Shown here: positions 23,534 to 33,022 of the stretch, piece by piece
How positions within the stretch are numbered: the stretch's first letter is position 1
Layout: the number at the start of each line of letters is the position of its first letter
NCBI RefSeq assembly: GCF_000384655.1
Contig: NZ_ARQI01000111.1
Location: forward strand, 1-52,799
Length of the DNA stretch: 52,799 nucleotides
Direction of reading: 5' to 3'
Source: Brachyspira innocens ATCC 29796
GTDB taxonomy: Bacteria; Spirochaetota; Brachyspiria; Brachyspirales; Brachyspiraceae
Made by a program: the position numbers and the translations under genes
Notes under the pieces: generated by a model
The model's input: only the letters and a program-made list of their open reading frames with translations
Databases searched by the model: none
What the model was told of the DNA's origin: nothing

Positions 23534-25219
23534 TTAGTAACTAAGATAATGTTCTAAATCGCTTGGATTAGTCATGTGATGAAGCGCTGAGCTATCATCT
23601 CTAGCTGAAGCAATATCAATGGCTGTTTTTCCTTCTTTGTTTTTAATATTATAATCGGCACCCATATTTACAAGAACTCCCACAATACCATAACTATAAC
23701 TTGCAGCTGCAATCATTAATGGAGTATTTCCTTCCTTATTCTTTTTATTTATATCAGCACCATTTTTTATCATATAATAACAAAGATCTGCTCCGCCGCC
23801 GTACTTGTTGGCATTTACTAAATATGTTAAAGGAGTATCTCCTGTTGCTGAACATATAGCATTTAAATCAGGCTTCAAATCAATAATATTTTTAGCTAAA
23901 CCCACATTATAATAATCTATTGCTTTCATTAAAGGAGTATATCCGTATCCATCTTCTAAATTTATATCAGCACCTTTCTCTACTAAAAATTTCACCATTT
24001 CTTTATCATTTCTAGCAGAAGCTAAATTAAGAGGTGTAATCTTATCATATTGTTTATTTAAATCAGTATCATCTTTTATAAGTTTTTCTAATGCTTTCAT
24101 ATCGCCTTTAGATACAGCATTCATTAATTCATCATATCCAGCTATATTGTTTGAATCTTCGCTTGATAATAATTTTTCTATTTCATAATATTTTTGCTTC
24201 TTTGCTAATTCTATAGCTTCTTCTCTAGTTGTATTAGTATTAAGATTAAAAACATCATTATCTATTAATAATTTAGCTATATCATAATTACCATAATCTA
24301 TTGCATTATATATATAATCATCGCTTGAGTTTAAATTGGCACCTTCATCAATTAAAAGTTTAGCTATTTCTATATTGCCATTTTGAGCTGCTACTTTCAT
24401 AGGAGAGTTAATCCAACCTCCATCTGCAAATATTTGAGCATTTACATCTTGTCCTATAGATATTAAATATTTAACCATTTCTATATTATTTTCTTCTATG
24501 GCATCAGGAATTAAGCTTGATTCCAAATCTATATCTCCGCTTTGTAGAAGTATTTTAAGCATATCAAGATTATTATTGTTTATTGCAGCATCTGTTAAAT
24601 AATAAGGATATTCATAACCATAATTTCTGCCTGCATCAAGTCCTTTATCAATTAAGATTTTACTCATTTCAACATTATTATTTTCAACAGCATAATAAAG
24701 CATATCAATACCATCTTCTGTTTCCATATCGCTTGCTCTAGCATTAACATCTGCACCTTCTTTTATAAGCTCTTTTGCTAAATCATTGTATCCGAATTGT
24801 ACTGCCAAAAACAAAGGAGTGGAATCTTTATATATGTAGTTATTGTAGTTATCACCAAAATTTGTCATTTCAGTGATTTTTCCTTCTAGTCCTTCCTCTG
24901 CCAATAATTTTGATATTTCGTATATTGGTGCTTTATATTTATATTGATTAAGTATTTCATCTATTTTACTATATCCTGTAGGTATAGGATCTAACTCTGT
25001 ACCTTGAATATATTCATTAGTATGTTTAGTTTTATTAATATCAATATCTGTATTATGATTTTCATTTGTAGTTGTAGGATTAACATATACTTTATTAGTT
25101 TCTGTTTGATTAGTTTGAGTATTTTCTGATTGTTCAGTATTACCGCTGTTACTGCCTCCACATGAAATTATAGCAGTAATTAAAATAAATGATGCAATTA
25201 TAGAAATCAAATTTTTCAT
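23534..25219 (-). CDS. ankyrin-repeat lipoprotein 2
   Basis: 561 residues, close paralogue of the protein encoded at 17503-19170. It has lipobox AIISC, an Asn/Thr-rich linker, the same KAPIYEISKLLAEEGLEG segment, and the same series of ankyrin units (DSTPLFLAVQFGYNDLAKEL, GYTPLMKAIDYYNVGLAKN, GNTPLMIAAASYSYGIVG). The frame begins at 25231, but the ATG at 25219 has GGAG 6 nt upstream and starts the signal peptide correctly. Differences from paralogue 1 are scattered substitutions and small indels. Probably surface or periplasmic binding; partner unknown. Confidence 0.88.
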   Translation of the reverse strand: MKNLISIIASFILITAIISCGGSNSGNTEQSENTQTNQTETNKVYVNPTTTNENHNTDIDINKTKHTNEYIQGTELDPIPTGYSKIDEILNQYKYKAPIYEISKLLAEEGLEGKITEMTNFGDNYNNYIYKDSTPLFLAVQFGYNDLAKELIKEGADVNARASDMETEDGIDMLYYAVENNNVEMSKILIDKGLDAGRNYGYEYPYYLTDAAINNNNLDMLKILLQSGDIDLESSLIPDAIEENNIEMVKYLISIGQDVNAQIFADGGWINSPMKVAAQNGNIEIAKLLIDEGANLNSSDDYIYNAIDYGNYDIAKLLIDNDVFNLNTNTTREEAIELAKKQKYYEIEKLLSSEDSNNIAGYDELMNAVSKGDMKALEKLIKDDTDLNKQYDKITPLNLASARNDKEMVKFLVEKGADINLEDGYGYTPLMKAIDYYNVGLAKNIIDLKPDLNAICSATGDTPLTYLVNANKYGGGADLCYYMIKNGADINKKNKEGNTPLMIAAASYSYGIVGVLVNMGADYNIKNKEGKTAIDIASARDDSSALHHMTNPSDLEHYLSY

Positions 25220-25251
25220 ATTGTACTCCATGTGTGTATTGTTGTTTTCGC

Positions 25252-25280
25252 ATTATAAATTAGAATTATCAAAATTTCAA
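25252..25280 (-). promoter_or_regulatory. promoter of ankyrin lipoprotein 2
   Basis: TTGAAA (25275-25280) and TATAAT (25252-25257) on the minus strand, 17 nt apart, in the same surroundings as the promoter of paralogue 1 at 19203-19231. Confidence 0.65.
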
Positions 25281-25300
25281 TTATGGAATATTGCTATAAT

Positions 25301-25334
25301 AAAAAAGTGCATACATATAATGCATTCACTTTTT
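25301..25334 (-). terminator. hairpin terminator, family member T5
   Basis: AAAAAGTGAATGCA..TGTATGCACTTTTTT hairpin on the minus strand after Rpn 3, homologous to the other GTGCAT hairpins of this block. Confidence 0.75.
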
Positions 25335-25379
25335 ATTATAGCTTTTATATTTATTAGTATAATTTTTTATTTATTTTTA

Positions 25380-25694
25380 TTATAATTTTTCTATTTCTTG
25401 TATACTCAAGCCTGTTATTTTACTTATAATATTAACATCTATATTTTCTTTTTTCATATTTTTAGCTGTTAATATTTGATTTTCTTTAATACCTTCTTTA
25501 ATACCTTCTTTAATACCTTCTTTAATACCTTCTTCTTTAGCCTTCTTTATATCTAACTCCATACTCTTATTAAAGAAATATGTATCTACTTCTCGTTTTT
25601 TATACTTATCCATTACTGGACTATCATTAACAAATGTACGGCATTTCTTTTCTACTTCTTCAAATATAGTATTTTCTTTCATTAAAATAGCCAT
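25380..25694 (-). CDS. internal short form of Rpn 3 (RpnS-like), intact
   Basis: ATG 25694 is 5 nt after GAGG (25700-25703). The product is 104 residues: MAILMKENTIFEEVEKK, a KYKKREVDTYFFNKSMELD region, four GIKE repeats (48 bp), then ENQILTAKNM and the tail ISKITGLSIQEIEKL. It is complete although the full-length nuclease is out of frame, so this locus may supply only the antitoxin-like product. Four-residue repeats of varying number in this helix are known from Rpn short forms in other bacteria. Confidence 0.6.
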   Translation of the reverse strand: MAILMKENTIFEEVEKKCRTFVNDSPVMDKYKKREVDTYFFNKSMELDIKKAKEEGIKEGIKEGIKEGIKENQILTAKNMKKENIDVNIISKITGLSIQEIEKL

Positions 25695-26317
25695 GTCTTC
25701 CTCATTTATAAATAAAAAAATTTTATCCAAGAAATGAATTCTTTATGTATATTATCTAAACTTTCTATTGCAGAAATATTTTTTAAATTGAATTTAGGAA
25801 GTTCAAGGAAATGCAATTGACAATGATCCGTTAAAATTTTATTATTATTTAATTCTTTTAAAATATAACAACTATGTACTTTATCTTCATCTGTAAGTAT
25901 AAAATTTGTAATATTAATACTTACAGTAGCTTTTAATTCATCATAAAAAGAACCTCTATTTAAACTAGAACTATAATTATAAGCCCAATAATACAAAGCT
26001 CTTTTTATAAAATCTTCATTTCCTCTCGATTGTATTTCTATTAAAACGGTTATACCTGTTTCTGTAGTAGCTTTTATATCTACAATGCTTTCCTTTTCAC
26101 CATAATTTTCTGCTATGTTAAATGGATTAAGTATTTCTATTTTCTTAAAAGTTTCAAAGTCCAAATCTTTAAATACAGCATTAATGAAATTTAAAGCTAT
26201 ATGTTCATTACCTGAATGAGAAAATAAATAGCGTATAAAATAATCATTGATTCTATTTAAATTATCAATTGTAACAGGTTCATTTAATATTTGTTTTAAT
26301 CTATCCAAATCTTTCAT
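25380..26317 (-). pseudogene. Rpn-family PD-(D/E)XK nuclease 3, frameshifted
   Basis: From ATG 26317 the protein parallels Rpn 1 closely (NRINDYFIRYLFSHSGNEHIA, ESIVDIKATTETGITVLIEIQ). The frame ends at SWIKFFYL with a stop at 25706-25708. The C-terminal part continues open in another frame from 25730. A homopolymer of seven A (25714-25720; T7 in the gene) sits at the junction, and one more base would restore WIKFFLFINEEDMAILMKEN and join both halves. This is therefore either a pseudogene, a homopolymer-switched gene, or a sequencing error. The short form starting at 25694 is intact. Confidence 0.82.
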
Positions 26318-26324
26318 GAATATT

Positions 26325-26330
26325 ATTATA
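26325..26330 (-). promoter_or_regulatory. -10 box of Rpn 3, leaderless start
   Basis: TATAAT (minus strand) ends 7 nt before ATG 26317, as at the other two Rpn genes. GTTTAC is 17 nt upstream as a weak -35. There is no Shine-Dalgarno upstream of the start codon. Confidence 0.6.
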
Positions 26331-26370
26331 CAAAAATTATTAAAAAAGTAAACTTATTTAAAGACTATAA

Positions 26371-27468
26371 CTATTTTGTAAGGAGTTTTATTATCTCTTC
26401 ATTTTCTCCGTATTCTCTGGCATGATATAATGCATCTCTATCACCTTTTTTTATACTTTTATCAGCACCTGCATCTAAAAGCATTTTTGTCATTTCTAAA
26501 TCTCCGTTATGACAAGCCCACATTAATGCTGTCATACCGCCCATATTTAGAACATTAACATCTGCATTATTTTTTATAAGTAATTTGACAAAATTAATTT
26601 TACCATTACATGCTGCATCTATCAAAGCAGTACCGCCATTGTAATTTAGACAATTTACATCTGCACCATTATCAATCAGCTTCTGTAAAAAAACTTCATT
26701 GGTAGAATAATTTACTGCAGTTATCAATGGAGCATTATCACTAAGCAAAGTTGCTTCATTAAGATTAGCCGCATTCAAACTTTTATCCAAAGAATCAGAA
26801 CCATTTTGAATTAAAATATCTGCTATATCATCATGTCCAAACATATAAGCATAAATCAAAGCATTAACATTATTTCTATTTCTTTTATTTACAAGAGCTT
26901 TATTTTCAATTAATATTTTTACCGTTTCTTTATAACCTTCCATAGCAGCATACATTAAAGGTGTTTCTTCATTTCCTCTATCTCCATTATAAGCTATATT
27001 AACATCAGCTTTGTTTTTTATTAAGAGTTTTACCATTTCAATATTTTCTTTTCTATCATATTCTAAAGCAGAAAATAATGCAGTTATTCCTCTAAAGCCT
27101 TGATAATCAATATCCGCACCATAACTTAAAAGTAGTTTAACCATTTCCATATTATTATTATCAACTGCAATCATTAATACACTACTCTTAATATCTACCA
27201 CAGCATTAATATCTGCTTTGTATTTCAAAAGAAGTTCAGCCATTTCTATATTATTATTTATAACGGCATCTGATAACAATGTAAAATGCCCATCATAATA
27301 ATTATTTATATCAACATCATATTTTTTAAGAATATTTTCAACTTCTTTAATATTGCCTTCATATACATAATCTCTTAATTGTTCAAAAACTTTACTTTTA
27401 TTAACAATTTGAGCGTTTAAGCACATACTAAATAAAAATATATTAAATAATACAATTAACTTTTTCAT
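26371..27468 (-). CDS. secreted ankyrin-repeat protein
   Basis: 365 residues with an N-terminal signal peptide (cleavage likely after LNA, before QIVNKS), followed directly by about ten ankyrin units such as HFTLLSDAVINNNIEMAELLL, ETPLMYAAMEGYKETVKIL and MTALMWACHNGDLEMTKMLL. Unlike its neighbours it has no convincing lipobox and no low-complexity linker. Its promoter region (TTGCAA, 17 nt, TATCAT upstream of 27468) resembles that of the lipoprotein gene at 22417. Located 54 nt downstream of nothing but its own promoter; it reads toward Rpn 3. The function is unknown; ankyrin surfaces bind proteins. Confidence 0.86.
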   Translation of the reverse strand: MKKLIVLFNIFLFSMCLNAQIVNKSKVFEQLRDYVYEGNIKEVENILKKYDVDINNYYDGHFTLLSDAVINNNIEMAELLLKYKADINAVVDIKSSVLMIAVDNNNMEMVKLLLSYGADIDYQGFRGITALFSALEYDRKENIEMVKLLIKNKADVNIAYNGDRGNEETPLMYAAMEGYKETVKILIENKALVNKRNRNNVNALIYAYMFGHDDIADILIQNGSDSLDKSLNAANLNEATLLSDNAPLITAVNYSTNEVFLQKLIDNGADVNCLNYNGGTALIDAACNGKINFVKLLIKNNADVNVLNMGGMTALMWACHNGDLEMTKMLLDAGADKSIKKGDRDALYHAREYGENEEIIKLLTK

Positions 27469-28274: not shown

Positions 28275-28463
28275 TTATGCATAAACATTTAAATTCTGAC
28301 CAATACCAGGTCTTACAGGAGCAGAAACAGCTTGAGGCTGAACACTGCTCATTATTTTATCAACTGCCTGAGCTTGCATATCAGAAGTTTTTCTTATCAT
28401 GCTTAAAGATATATCTTGTTTAAGCATAGCTGTTGAATAAGAATTATAAGCTGAAATATCCAT
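28275..28463 (-). CDS. YjfB-family putative motility protein 1
   Basis: 62 residues, MDISAYNSYSTAMLKQDISLSMIRKTSD..AQAVDKIMSSV, ending in GIGQNLNVYA. The N-terminal MDIS and the helical amphipathic pattern match the small YjfB-type proteins found with flagellar regulons in firmicutes and spirochaetes. An upstream ATG at 28475 exists, but GGAGG is 6 nt before the ATG at 28463. The biochemical role of the family is not established. Confidence 0.7.
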   Translation of the reverse strand: MDISAYNSYSTAMLKQDISLSMIRKTSDMQAQAVDKIMSSVQPQAVSAPVRPGIGQNLNVYA

Positions 28464-28661
28464 ATTATCCTCCATTTTTAATATAGTGTATAAAACTTAT
28501 TTATATGATAATTGTAAACCAATAAAAAATTTAATCAAGGAAATTTTATAAAAAATAGAGAAAATAAAAAAATAACGGAATGTATTATGATAATAAATAC
28601 TTATGTAATAATTGTATGACCAACTGCATTTTTTTATAATACAATTGGTCATGAACAATAA

Positions 28662-28859
28662 TTAAGCATACACATCCAAACTCTTTCCAATGTTGTTATT
28701 AATAGCTACAGATGCTCCTTGAGGAATTACCATACTTGCAACTTTTTCAGCAGATTGAGCAGAACCATAAGCTGAAGAGTTGTAGACATTTAATCCTGCA
28801 GAAGTCATATGTCTAGTCAATGGAAACATTTCAGATGAATAAATAGAATAAACTCCCAT
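28662..28859 (-). CDS. YjfB-like small protein 2
   Basis: 65 residues, paralogue of the gene at 28275. The N terminus has diverged, but AQSAEKVASMV and the end NNIGKSLDVYA align with AQAVDKIMSSV and PGIGQNLNVYA of the first copy. GGAGG lies before the ATG (TCTGGAGGTTATAAATG). The two genes are 198 nt apart, each with its own spacing, so this is an old tandem duplication. Probably the same function or partner as the first. Confidence 0.6.
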   Translation of the reverse strand: MGVYSIYSSEMFPLTRHMTSAGLNVYNSSAYGSAQSAEKVASMVIPQGASVAINNNIGKSLDVYA

Positions 28860-29083: not shown

Positions 29084-29120
29084 TTGACTTCTTTTTGTAT
29101 TATACATATACTAGGTATAT
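29084..29120 (+). promoter_or_regulatory. promoter of CoA-disulfide reductase with overlapping operator-like dyad
   Basis: TTGACT (29084-29089) and TATACT (29107-29112) are 17 nt apart. ATATAC-TAG-GTATAT (29106-29120), a perfect 6-bp dyad with a 3-bp centre, covers the -10. A repressor bound here would block transcription. The rhodanese-CsoR protein encoded at 30990 is the obvious candidate, since CsoR-type proteins bind dyads over promoters. Confidence 0.55.
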
Positions 29121-29141: not shown

Positions 29142-30830
29142 ATGAAAAAAATATTAATAGTAGGTGGTGTTGCAGGAGGAGCTTCTGCTGCTGCAAGACT
29201 TAGAAGACTAAATGAAGAGGATAAAATCATAATGTTTGAAAAAGGTCCTCATGTATCTTTTTCTAACTGCTCACTTCCATATCATATAGGCGGATTAATT
29301 CCAAATGAAGAAACTTTACTTTTAATGAATCCAGAGAAATTTTTAAAACAATTCAATGTAGATGCTAGAATAAACAGCGAAGTTGTAGCAATAGACAGAG
29401 AAAAAAAAGAAGTTACAGTTGTATCTGAAGGAAGAGAATATAAAGAAAGTTATGATAAACTTATACTTTCTATGGGGGCAAAACCAATAGTACCTCCTTT
29501 TAAAGGAATGGATAAAGTTAATGTATTTACTGTAAGAAATGTTGTTGATATAAGCAAAATACATAATTTTCTTAACGGAAAACCTAATGCTAAAGTTACT
29601 GTTATAGGCGGAGGATTTATCGGTATAGAGATGGCTGAAAACTTAAAAAAAGTAGGATATAATGTAACAATAGTAGAAGCATTACCTCAAATAATGAAGC
29701 CTTTCGACTATGATATGGTTCAAATTCTTCATAGAGAATTAATTGATAACGGTGTTGATTTGATCGTTAATGATAAAGTAGATAGTTTTGATACCAATAC
29801 AGTTATTTTAGGTTCTGGTAAAAAAATAGAGGCTGATGCTGTTATTCTTGCTATAGGAGTTACTCCAGAAACTGATATAGCTGTTAAAGCTGGAATAGAA
29901 TTAGGAAAAACAAAAGCAATTAAAGTTGATGCTAATTACCGTACTAATGACAAAGATATTTATGCCGTAGGAGATGCTATAGAAGTTTACAGTCCTTTAT
30001 TTAATGATTATTTCAAATTGGCTTTAGCAGGACCTGCTCAGAAACAGGCAAGATTAGTTGCTGACCATATTAATGGAAGAACTGTTGATAACAGAGGATT
30101 TATAGGCTCATCTGTTATAAAAGTGTTCGGATATAACGGAGCTTCTACTGGACTTTCTGAAGGTTTGATAAAAGCTATGAACTTAAATATAGATTATGAT
30201 ACTGTTGAAATTATACCATTTGACGGCGTATCAATAATGCCTTCTGCAAGACTTCTTCATTTCAAACTCATATACGAAGTTCCTACTGGAAAAGTTTTAG
30301 GTGCTCAGGCTATAGGTAAAGGAAATGTTGATAAGAGAATAGATGTTATAGCTACTTTAATAAAATTCGGCGGTACTATAGATGATTTAAAAGATTTAGA
30401 ATTATGCTATGCTCCTTCATTCGGTACTGCTAAAGATGCTGTAAACTTTGCAGGATATGTAGCTTCAAATTTAAGAAACGGAGATTTCAAACAAGTTCAT
30501 TTCAGCCAAGTAAGAGAATTAGTAGAAAAAGATGCTTATTTCCTAGATGTAAGACCTCCTGAAGATTTTGCTGTAGGACATTTAGAAAAAGCGGTTAACA
30601 TACCTCTTGGAGCTTTAAGAAGCAGATACAATGAAGTTCCTAAAGACAGACCTGTATACATTACATGCAAAACTGGATTAACCAGCTATACTGCATGTAA
30701 AATATTAAAAAACATAGGTTTTGATAATGTTATTAATGTTTCTGGCGGATTTGTAGGTTTATCTCAATATGAATATTATAATGACAAAGTTACTGGAAGA
30801 AAACCTATTTTAACAGGTTATTTTAAATAA
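29142..30830 (+). CDS. cdr: CoA-disulfide reductase with C-terminal rhodanese domain
   Basis: 562 residues. FAD-binding VGGVAGGASAAARLRR at the N terminus, then active-site Cys43 in SFSNCSLPYHIGG (the single-cysteine motif of CoA-disulfide or CoA-persulfide reductases), an NAD(P)H site IGGGFIGIEMAENL near 150, and the dimer domain. From about 450 a rhodanese domain follows with the persulfide-carrying Cys509 in ITCKTGLTSYTA. The fusion (CoADR-RHD) is known for handling CoA or polysulfide sulfur in other bacteria. The gene may protect this anaerobe against sulfide-derived polysulfides or disulfide stress. Regulation probably involves the dyad at 29106 and the downstream repressor. Confidence 0.92.
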   Translation: MKKILIVGGVAGGASAAARLRRLNEEDKIIMFEKGPHVSFSNCSLPYHIGGLIPNEETLLLMNPEKFLKQFNVDARINSEVVAIDREKKEVTVVSEGREYKESYDKLILSMGAKPIVPPFKGMDKVNVFTVRNVVDISKIHNFLNGKPNAKVTVIGGGFIGIEMAENLKKVGYNVTIVEALPQIMKPFDYDMVQILHRELIDNGVDLIVNDKVDSFDTNTVILGSGKKIEADAVILAIGVTPETDIAVKAGIELGKTKAIKVDANYRTNDKDIYAVGDAIEVYSPLFNDYFKLALAGPAQKQARLVADHINGRTVDNRGFIGSSVIKVFGYNGASTGLSEGLIKAMNLNIDYDTVEIIPFDGVSIMPSARLLHFKLIYEVPTGKVLGAQAIGKGNVDKRIDVIATLIKFGGTIDDLKDLELCYAPSFGTAKDAVNFAGYVASNLRNGDFKQVHFSQVRELVEKDAYFLDVRPPEDFAVGHLEKAVNIPLGALRSRYNEVPKDRPVYITCKTGLTSYTACKILKNIGFDNVINVSGGFVGLSQYEYYNDKVTGRKPILTGYFK

Positions 30831-30906: not shown

Positions 30907-30934
30907 TTGTAAAAATCTATTTTTTTTATATAAT
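30907..30934 (+). promoter_or_regulatory. promoter of the rhodanese-CsoR gene
   Basis: TTGTAA (30907-30912) and TATAAT (30929-30934) with a 16-nt spacer, about 55 nt before the ATG at 30990. I see no copy of the ATATACTAGGTATAT dyad here. Confidence 0.45.
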
Positions 30935-30989: not shown

Positions 30990-31595
30990 ATGGTAATAGA
31001 AAATGGATTAAATATAGTATCGCCTTCGGAGGCTGGTGAAATTATTAAAAATACTGAAAACGTAGTTATACTTGATGTAAGAACAGAGATGGAGCATAAC
31101 TATGAGGGTATGATTGAAGATTCCGTTTCTATGGATTTCCTTAAGCCTAGAGTATTTAAAAGAGAAATATCAAAACTAGATAAAAATACCCCATACTTGC
31201 TTTATTGTTCTGTAGGGAAATTAAGCATTAAAGCAGCTGAGTATATGAAAGAAGAAGGTTTTAATAATCTTTATGTTTTGGAAGGCGGATTAAAGGCTTG
31301 GAATAAACATTTTGGAGACAGTAATAAGGTTTCTAAATTTGACAGAGAAGAAGCTGTAGAAAGAAGAAAAAGACTTATTATTAGATTAAATAGAATTGAA
31401 GGTCAGATTAAGGGAATGAAAAAAATGCTTGCTAAAGGCGAATACTGCGGAGATATACTTAATCAGTCTCTAGCTGTTAAAGCTGCTATGGGAAGTGTTA
31501 ATCAGGAAATTATGGAAGTATTTTTAAACACCTGTATGATTTCACCTAAAGAGAAGGAAGATTTCTTCAGATATATGAGAAAACTTATAAAGTAA
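30990..31595 (+). CDS. rhodanese-CsoR fusion, probable persulfide-responsive repressor
   Basis: 201 residues in two domains. Residues 10-110 form a rhodanese with Cys73 in YLLYCSVGKLS. Residues 122-201 form a CsoR/DUF156 repressor: RRKRLIIRLNRIEGQIKGM, Cys153 in GEYCGDIL, and Cys182 in FLNTCM. Copper-sensing CsoR proteins have a His four residues before the second Cys; here that position is Phe179-Leu (no His). This leaves a two-Cys pair as in CstR, the persulfide sensor of S. aureus. In CstR systems the rhodanese is a separate protein; here sulfurtransferase and sensor are one chain. AAGGATG precedes the ATG. It follows the CoA-disulfide reductase by 159 nt. Confidence 0.85.
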   Translation: MVIENGLNIVSPSEAGEIIKNTENVVILDVRTEMEHNYEGMIEDSVSMDFLKPRVFKREISKLDKNTPYLLYCSVGKLSIKAAEYMKEEGFNNLYVLEGGLKAWNKHFGDSNKVSKFDREEAVERRKRLIIRLNRIEGQIKGMKKMLAKGEYCGDILNQSLAVKAAMGSVNQEIMEVFLNTCMISPKEKEDFFRYMRKLIK

Positions 31596-31666: not shown

Positions 31667-33022
31667 CTATTTTCCCCATTCATCGGGATTTTTATTCCAT
31701 TCTAATGCTTTATCTAATTCATCTTCTGTTATATAATTTTCATCTTTAGCTATTTCCATAAGAGATGTAAAGTTAGAAAGTGATGAGAATTTTATTCCAG
31801 CCTCTTCAAAATTTTTGTACGCCTTTTCAAACTCATAAGAAAATATAGCTATAATCTCAAGACCGATAGCACCTTCATTTTTAGCAGCTTCAAATGCTTT
31901 TATAGAACTTCCGCCTGTAGATATCAAATCTTCTATTAAGATTAATTTTTTTCCATCACACTCAGCACCCTCTATCTGCTTGCCTCTTCCATGTTCTTTT
32001 TTCTCTGCTCTTATATAGCATAATGGTTTATTAAGTTCATAAGCTATAAAAGAAGCCCAAGGTATTCCAGCTGTAGCAGTACCAGCTATAACATCAAAAT
32101 CTTTATCTTTTAATATACTCACAAAAGCATCAACTATAACCTGTCTGTACTTTGGAAAACCTATAACATATCTATTATCGCAGTATATAGGACTTTTTAT
32201 TCCAGATACAAAAGTAAATGGTTCTTTAACATTAAGTTTAACAGCTTTAGTTTCAAGTAAAGCTCCCGCTATTAATCTTGCTTTTAATTTTTTATTATGC
32301 TCTATACCTTCTGCAATTTCTTCTACAACCATTTTGCATGCTTTTACTCTGTCCTCACTTCTTGTAATAGGTCTTCCTACAACCAAATAATCACATCCGT
32401 TTTCTATAGCTTCTTTCGGAGTCATTATTCTTTCCTGATCATCAACACTAGCCCATTTAGGTCTAACACCAGGGCATACTGTTCTAAAGTTTTCTCCGCA
32501 TTCTTTTTTTATTATACTGGCCTCTTTAGGAGAGCATACCACTCCGTCAAGTCCAGCCTCTTTTCCTAATTTTGCCCAATTAACTGCTAAATCTGTTAAT
32601 GCTAAATTGGAACTGAACATATTTTTTACATCATTTTCAGAAAGACTTGTTAGTATTGTAACGCCTATTATAAGATTATCTTTATTTAATTTTTTTATCT
32701 CCTCAACAGTTCTTTCCATCATCTTTTTTCCGCCGCTTGTATGAACATTAAACATAAATATATTTTGTTTAGCTGCAAAAAGAGAAGCCATAGCTGTAGT
32801 ATTAGGTATATCATGGAATTTTAAATCAAGAAATACCTTTTTATTTTTACTTGCCAAATACTCTATTATTTCCCCTTTAGTGTATAAGAAAAGCTCAAGC
32901 CCTACTTTATAAAATACCGCCTCATCTCCAAGCTCATCTATAAGTTTAGTTGCCTCTCCCATAGAGTTAAAGTCTAATGCTATAATTAATCTCTCTTTTG
33001 GATCATCAGTTAATTTTATCAT
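31667..33022 (-). CDS. pyrFE: bifunctional orotidine-5'-phosphate decarboxylase / orotate phosphoribosyltransferase (PyrF-PyrE)
   Basis: 451 residues. The N-terminal half is OMP decarboxylase, group I: LIIALDFNSM, catalytic LDLKFHDIPNT with Asp-Lys-Asp, and VVGRPITRSEDR. The C-terminal half (from about 245) is orotate phosphoribosyltransferase: AVKLNVKEPFTFVSGIKSPIYCDNR and the PRPP loop LILIEDLISTGGSS. It therefore performs the last two steps of UMP synthesis, PyrE then PyrF. The domain order is ODC-OPRT, opposite to the human UMPS protein. Last gene of pyrK-pyrD-pyrFE; 58 nt after pyrD. Terminator at 31619. Confidence 0.93.
   Translation of the reverse strand: MIKLTDDPKERLIIALDFNSMGEATKLIDELGDEAVFYKVGLELFLYTKGEIIEYLASKNKKVFLDLKFHDIPNTTAMASLFAAKQNIFMFNVHTSGGKKMMERTVEEIKKLNKDNLIIGVTILTSLSENDVKNMFSSNLALTDLAVNWAKLGKEAGLDGVVCSPKEASIIKKECGENFRTVCPGVRPKWASVDDQERIMTPKEAIENGCDYLVVGRPITRSEDRVKACKMVVEEIAEGIEHNKKLKARLIAGALLETKAVKLNVKEPFTFVSGIKSPIYCDNRYVIGFPKYRQVIVDAFVSILKDKDFDVIAGTATAGIPWASFIAYELNKPLCYIRAEKKEHGRGKQIEGAECDGKKLILIEDLISTGGSSIKAFEAAKNEGAIGLEIIAIFSYEFEKAYKNFEEAGIKFSSLSNFTSLMEIAKDENYITEDELDKALEWNKNPDEWGK

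Follow-up and report, generated by a model that had tools for sequence, protein, structure and literature searches.

The window analysed here, a 52,799-nucleotide stretch of the genome of Brachyspira innocens ATCC 29796, contains two adjacent genes on the plus strand. The first (29142–30830) is a coaP-like gene, whose product combines a CoA-disulfide/persulfide reductase with a C-terminal rhodanese, as the initial annotation had proposed; the same architecture is found in CoAPR, the coaP product of E. faecalis (PMC9405070). The coaP promoter (29084–29112, plus strand), read from the sequence and conserved in the genus, consists of a -35 element, TTGACT (29084–29089), and a -10 element, TATACT (29107–29112), separated by 17 nt. 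The second gene (30990–31595) is a single open reading frame of 201 codons, in which a rhodanese is joined to a CsoR/CstR-like repressor. It is preceded on the same strand by a promoter-like element (TTGTAA, 16 nt, TATAAT; 30907–30934) without the operator described below. Downstream of the fusion gene, one open reading frame (31667–33022) holds, as judged by eye, orotidine-5'-phosphate decarboxylase and orotate phosphoribosyltransferase (pyrF-pyrE). On the other side of the gene pair lie two short minus-strand open reading frames of similar make-up (28275–28475 and 28662–28859; 66 and 65 residues), and the latter accompanies coaP in the majority of Brachyspira loci. Further upstream (23534–27468), ankyrin-repeat proteins occur, again by eye, on both sides of a nuclease-looking, Rpn/transposase-like open reading frame (25706–26317).

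Residues 12–106 of the fusion protein (31023–31307) form the rhodanese domain (Pfam PF00581, E = 1.2e-15, 58 bits against a cut-off of 22.2), which was also recognized by fold search. Residues 126–190 (31365–31559) form the CsoR/DUF156 repressor domain (PF02583, Trns_repr_metal, E = 5.4e-20, 72 bits against a curated cut-off of 22.8), which also matches CsoR/CstR structures by sequence, and no other gene of the B. innocens genome carries PF02583. The chain possesses only three cysteines. Cys73 (codon 31206–31208) is the active-site residue of the rhodanese in the loop CSVGKLS, whereas Cys153 (31446–31448) and Cys182 (31533–31535), 29 residues apart, occupy positions X and Z of the WXYZ fingerprint of the repressor family. 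All three are unchanged in the alignment of 24 fusions computed here, which covers two phyla at 47–98% identity to the window copy. The Y position is Phe178 in all 24 copies and the repressor half (residues 119–201) contains no histidine; the Cys-His-Cys arrangement (X-Y-Z) of metal sensors is thus replaced by an invariant Cys153-Phe178-Cys182. These features agree with the initial description of a 201-residue rhodanese–DUF156 chain with a CstR-like pair of cysteines and no histidine. The basic RLxR motif named for CsoRs (PMC3902906), typical of the DNA-binding members, is present as R132-L133-N134-R135, and most Fusobacteriota copies have RLNK.

The same single chain occurs intact and at full length in 22 of 26 genomes of Brachyspira, a genus of gut spirochaetes, including that of the window, and in 12 of 98 Fusobacteriota genomes, of which 11 hold an intact copy and one (L103) a copy truncated where the contig stops. 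Its presence in two phyla excludes chance or an assembly artefact as the origin of the fusion. No full-length match was found in 74 sampled genomes outside Brachyspira, and the wider contig scan relied on narrow peptide patterns, so that the counts cover Brachyspira and Fusobacteriota; among plasmid-borne sequences, no match spans both domains. In one B. pilosicoli draft (G001, L052 7779–8365), a frameshift close to codon 129 interrupts the gene; it may be a sequencing error or a real loss. The fusion gene directly follows coaP in most Brachyspira. In the pilosicoli-like clade (G001, G007, G015, G018, and G025), the fusion gene has a different location, and coaP is not linked to it; no full-length coaP was found in G025 (L049 4777–5379, L284), which retains the fusion and the predicted operator at the membrane-type rhodanese gene. 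Neither the fusion nor coaP was found in G006, G010, and G021. Ten Fusobacteriota loci link the fusion to coaP and, in most cases, to YeeE/YedE-type transporters. In G156, the fusion (L134 7542–8162) sits in a multi-rhodanese cluster and not with coaP. The same cluster exists in G144, where a solo rhodanese (L135 6830–7195) without the repressor half takes the place of the fusion; the two clusters may illustrate the origin or the loss of the fusion.

The two halves of the fusion differ in their rate of change. Within the main clade, the repressor half is 98–100% identical, and the rhodanese half diverges faster, with 84–96% identity; the free 108-residue rhodanese is mostly 62–74% identical over the same clade. 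The rhodanese loop follows C-x-x-G-x-[LIV]-[SG] in 23 of the 24 fusions, including the window copy, in which the usual Arg is absent, and the loop Gly76 is invariant across all 24 copies and both phyla. A C-x-x-G-x-R-S loop exists in the L134 fusion, in the related solo rhodanese of G144, and in two free Brachyspira rhodaneses, which suggests that the main group of fusions has lost the loop Arg. The AlphaFold2 model of the chain contains two good domains connected by a disordered linker (pLDDT below 50 at residues 111–116) with a pTM of 0.54, so that it predicts no fixed contact between the domains, and the linker looks flexible in this model. A fold search with the model returned rhodaneses, including CoADR-RHD and persulfide reductase structures, and a sequence search of solved structures gave none spanning both domains.

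Operators of the CsoR family share the inverted repeat 5'-TACX9GTA-3', as noted from aligned operators, S. aureus sites among them (PMC3902906). At the coaP promoter, the predicted operator TATACATATACTAGGTATA (29101–29119) has the form TATAC-N9-GTATA, and hence TAC-N9-GTA, and overlaps the -10 element; its assignment rests on conservation and on the published pattern. The initial annotation had pointed to a dyad at 29084–29120. The region is real and the location is supported, and the part shared with other promoters is the TATAC-N9-GTATA segment. The short palindrome ATATACTAGGTATAT was rejected as an operator unit: with up to two mismatches it occurs 60 times in the genome, no more often than the control (68), and its single one-mismatch site in the window (5678) falls inside an rnfE-like gene. 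The form common to other promoters is the N9 form. Exact TATAC-N9-GTATA matches are themselves not enriched in the window genome (34 places against 39 for the backward control), so that the motif has little weight by itself and conservation carries the argument. Sites in the window genome were inspected around pattern matches only, and targets were picked there from exact matches near sulfur or redox genes and then checked in other species; since the genes were chosen on the window genome, the test is conservation in the other genomes. Spacings of 3 to 15 between the TAC and GTA arms were tested over sets of orthologous 150-bp upstream regions. Shuffled sequences are expected to give 0.3–0.8 N9 matches per set, and no other spacing is enriched across the sets; the N3 match found throughout Brachyspira coaP arises because the site contains an inner TAC.

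In the upstream regions compared here, the N9 site is present at coaP in 21/21 Brachyspira loci and in all 10 fusion-bearing Fusobacteriota loci, for example as TATACTGGGTCAGGGTATA and TATACTAGTACCGGGTATA, and is absent from all seven control coaP homologues (five from fusion-less Fusobacteriota genomes and two second, unlinked copies), which strengthens the earlier suggestion that coaP is a target. Were the loci independent, the contrast of 10/10 with 0/7 would arise by chance once in 19,448 cases; they are not independent, and kinship among the genomes inflates the counts. The comparison adds further predicted targets to the one proposed initially. The site also occurs at a membrane-type rhodanese gene (contig C83; 22/22, pilosicoli clade included) and at the gene of the small 108-residue rhodanese (contig C90; 14/18). 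At cdr2, a second CoA-disulfide-reductase-like gene (contig C93), it was counted in 16 of 17 main-clade loci, as the match in G011 (TACCAAAGGAGCGTA) lies over the ribosome-binding site and was discounted; none of seven control cdr2 regions (from the pilosicoli clade, from G021, which has no fusion, and from a divergent additional copy in G002) has it. Between trxA and a divergently oriented MarR-like gene (contig C67), the site is present in all 18 main-clade genomes, compared with 1/8 at trxA of the pilosicoli clade and fusion-less genomes. In the window genome, this site (L179 1327–1345) lies upstream of the trxA -35 element, and the target may therefore be trxA or the MarR-like gene. In the pilosicoli clade, which has the fusion, the site is missing from cdr2 and trxA, and the regulon there seems reduced to coaP and the membrane-type rhodanese. 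Between species, the nine bases inside the site are most variable at trxA, at the small rhodanese gene, and at coaP of Fusobacteriota; the arms and their spacing do not change, as would be expected of an operator. Autoregulation of the fusion gene was rejected, as only 1/21 of its upstream regions has the site.

Characterised CstR proteins, such as that of S. pneumoniae, typically have Asn at the Y position. This Asn is absent from the fusion, which has Phe178, and structure 7mq3 has Ala there; in this respect the fusion may depart from a standard CstR. In other respects, it resembles the CstRs of S. aureus and E. faecalis, with the DUF156 fold, a dithiol, no metal-ligand His, and a TACX9GTA operator, here predicted. 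The S. aureus dithiol is C31/C60 (PMC9774590) and that of E. faecalis is C31/C62 (PMC9405070). The spacing of Cys153 and Cys182 equals that of C31 and C60 in the former and lies in the range of about 29–31 residues that, with the lack of His at Y, marks CstR. In E. faecalis, coaP and two rhodaneses are under the control of CstR (PMC9405070); as judged from the predicted operators, the fusion would share this CstR trait of controlling sulfurtransferases and a persulfide reductase. CstR itself has one small domain, and the new element is the fused rhodanese. With this additional half and Phe178, the protein is treated here as a CstR-like variant that falls outside CstR proper. Two other CstR-like repressors of sulfur genes with two cysteines, YrkD of Bacillus licheniformis and TTHA1953 of Thermus thermophilus (PMC9918477, PMC10318464), contain no rhodanese domain, and TTHA1953 binds TACNNTACNNNNGTANNGTA and controls Sox genes. 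The CsoR copper repressors of Streptomyces lividans and Bacillus subtilis share the fold and the TAC-N9-GTA operator spacing (PMC3902906), but utilize a Cys-His-Cys copper site in place of Cys-Phe-Cys. In CoAPR/CoADR-RHD and in persulfide dioxygenase–rhodanese fusions, a rhodanese is also tethered to a partner acting on its sulfur; there the partner is an enzyme, whereas in the Brachyspira fusion it is a transcriptional repressor. An incomplete literature search found no paper naming a rhodanese–CstR/CsoR fusion, and an earlier mention is possible.

Taken from sequence comparison, the fusion is likely to be a sulfur-responsive, CstR-like repressor of a reactive-sulfur regulon. The reduced CsoR-type tetramer would sit on TATAC-N9-GTATA sites on or beside the regulon promoters and repress coaP, the second CoA-disulfide-reductase-like gene, the two rhodanese genes, and, probably, either trxA or the MarR-like gene divergent from it. 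At higher levels of low-molecular-weight persulfide or polysulfide, the rhodanese would capture sulfane sulfur on Cys73 and hand it to Cys153, a step of the kind that the initial annotation proposed. Cys153 and Cys182' of two protomers would then be joined by a di- or polysulfide, and the DNA would be released, as in CstR (PMC9774590). The derepressed regulon would reduce CoA persulfide, move sulfane sulfur, and dispose of persulfide. We infer DNA binding by the fusion, persulfide as its effector, and the transfer from Cys73 to Cys153, which is the least certain step and is proposed only tentatively. Through this transfer, the tethered rhodanese could pick donors such as CoASSH or a cysteine desulfurase and load the sensor thiol, the signal being delivered enzymatically within the protein; we regard this as possible, with some doubt. 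If it were true, the enzyme domain, and not bulk thiol chemistry, would set the sulfur species, and the amount of it, needed to induce the genes. In E. faecalis, it is not known from which molecules the CstR-controlled rhodaneses receive sulfur inside the cell, or to which they pass it (PMC9405070).

The repressor half may instead sense persulfide alone, with the rhodanese soaking up sulfur and so setting the threshold, removing sulfur from Cys153/Cys182 to reset the repressor, or serving a structural role. This explanation is a credible one that we likewise hold short of even, and we give roughly equal weight to the transfer from Cys73 and to a role as sink, threshold, or reset. Persulfide sensing by standalone CstR requires no rhodanese (PMC5480029, PMC9774590), and the flexible linker without a fixed domain contact, the loop Arg missing from 23/24 fused rhodaneses, and the faster divergence of the rhodanese half are all consistent with it; for the transfer, these same three points count as neutral or unfavourable. 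The invariance of Cys73 and Gly76 and the retention of the fusion where coaP is unlinked or missing argue in the other direction, and the invariant Cys73, together with the higher identity of the fused rhodanese compared with the free 108-residue one, was counted in favour of the transfer.

A general thiol-redox or electrophile repressor, responding to disulfide stress, nitroxyl, or oxidants and not to sulfane sulfur specifically, is rather unlikely. Nitroxyl likewise crosslinks C31 and C60' of CstR (PMC5480029), TTHA1953 responds to disulfide formation and not to NaHS (PMC10318464), and trxA is among the predicted targets; however, the fused rhodanese and the predicted targets coaP, the CoA-disulfide-reductase-like gene, and the rhodaneses point to sulfane sulfur. 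A CsoR/RcnR-type sensor of copper or nickel, to which family membership and the mostly metal-sensing NCBIfam and PDB relatives of the repressor domain would point, is very improbable, since Phe178 replaces in every copy the Y-position His of CsoR, InrS, and FrmR, whose H60L substitution costs FrmR its Zn (PMC5016687), the repressor half is devoid of histidine, and no copper or nickel exporter is present among the predicted targets.

How thiol-based repressors distinguish persulfides from other oxidants is not settled. For the sulfur-responsive, CstR-like repressor preferred here, whose operator is defined and whose regulon is predicted, the union of donor domain and sensor in one natural chain makes such questions addressable by single Cys changes, and Brachyspira thereby gains a predicted sulfur regulon.

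As a separate observation, two further TATAC-N9-GTATA sites (L198 1537–1555 and 1623–1641, contig C122 of the window genome) lie 86 bp apart upstream of a rubrerythrin-like gene.
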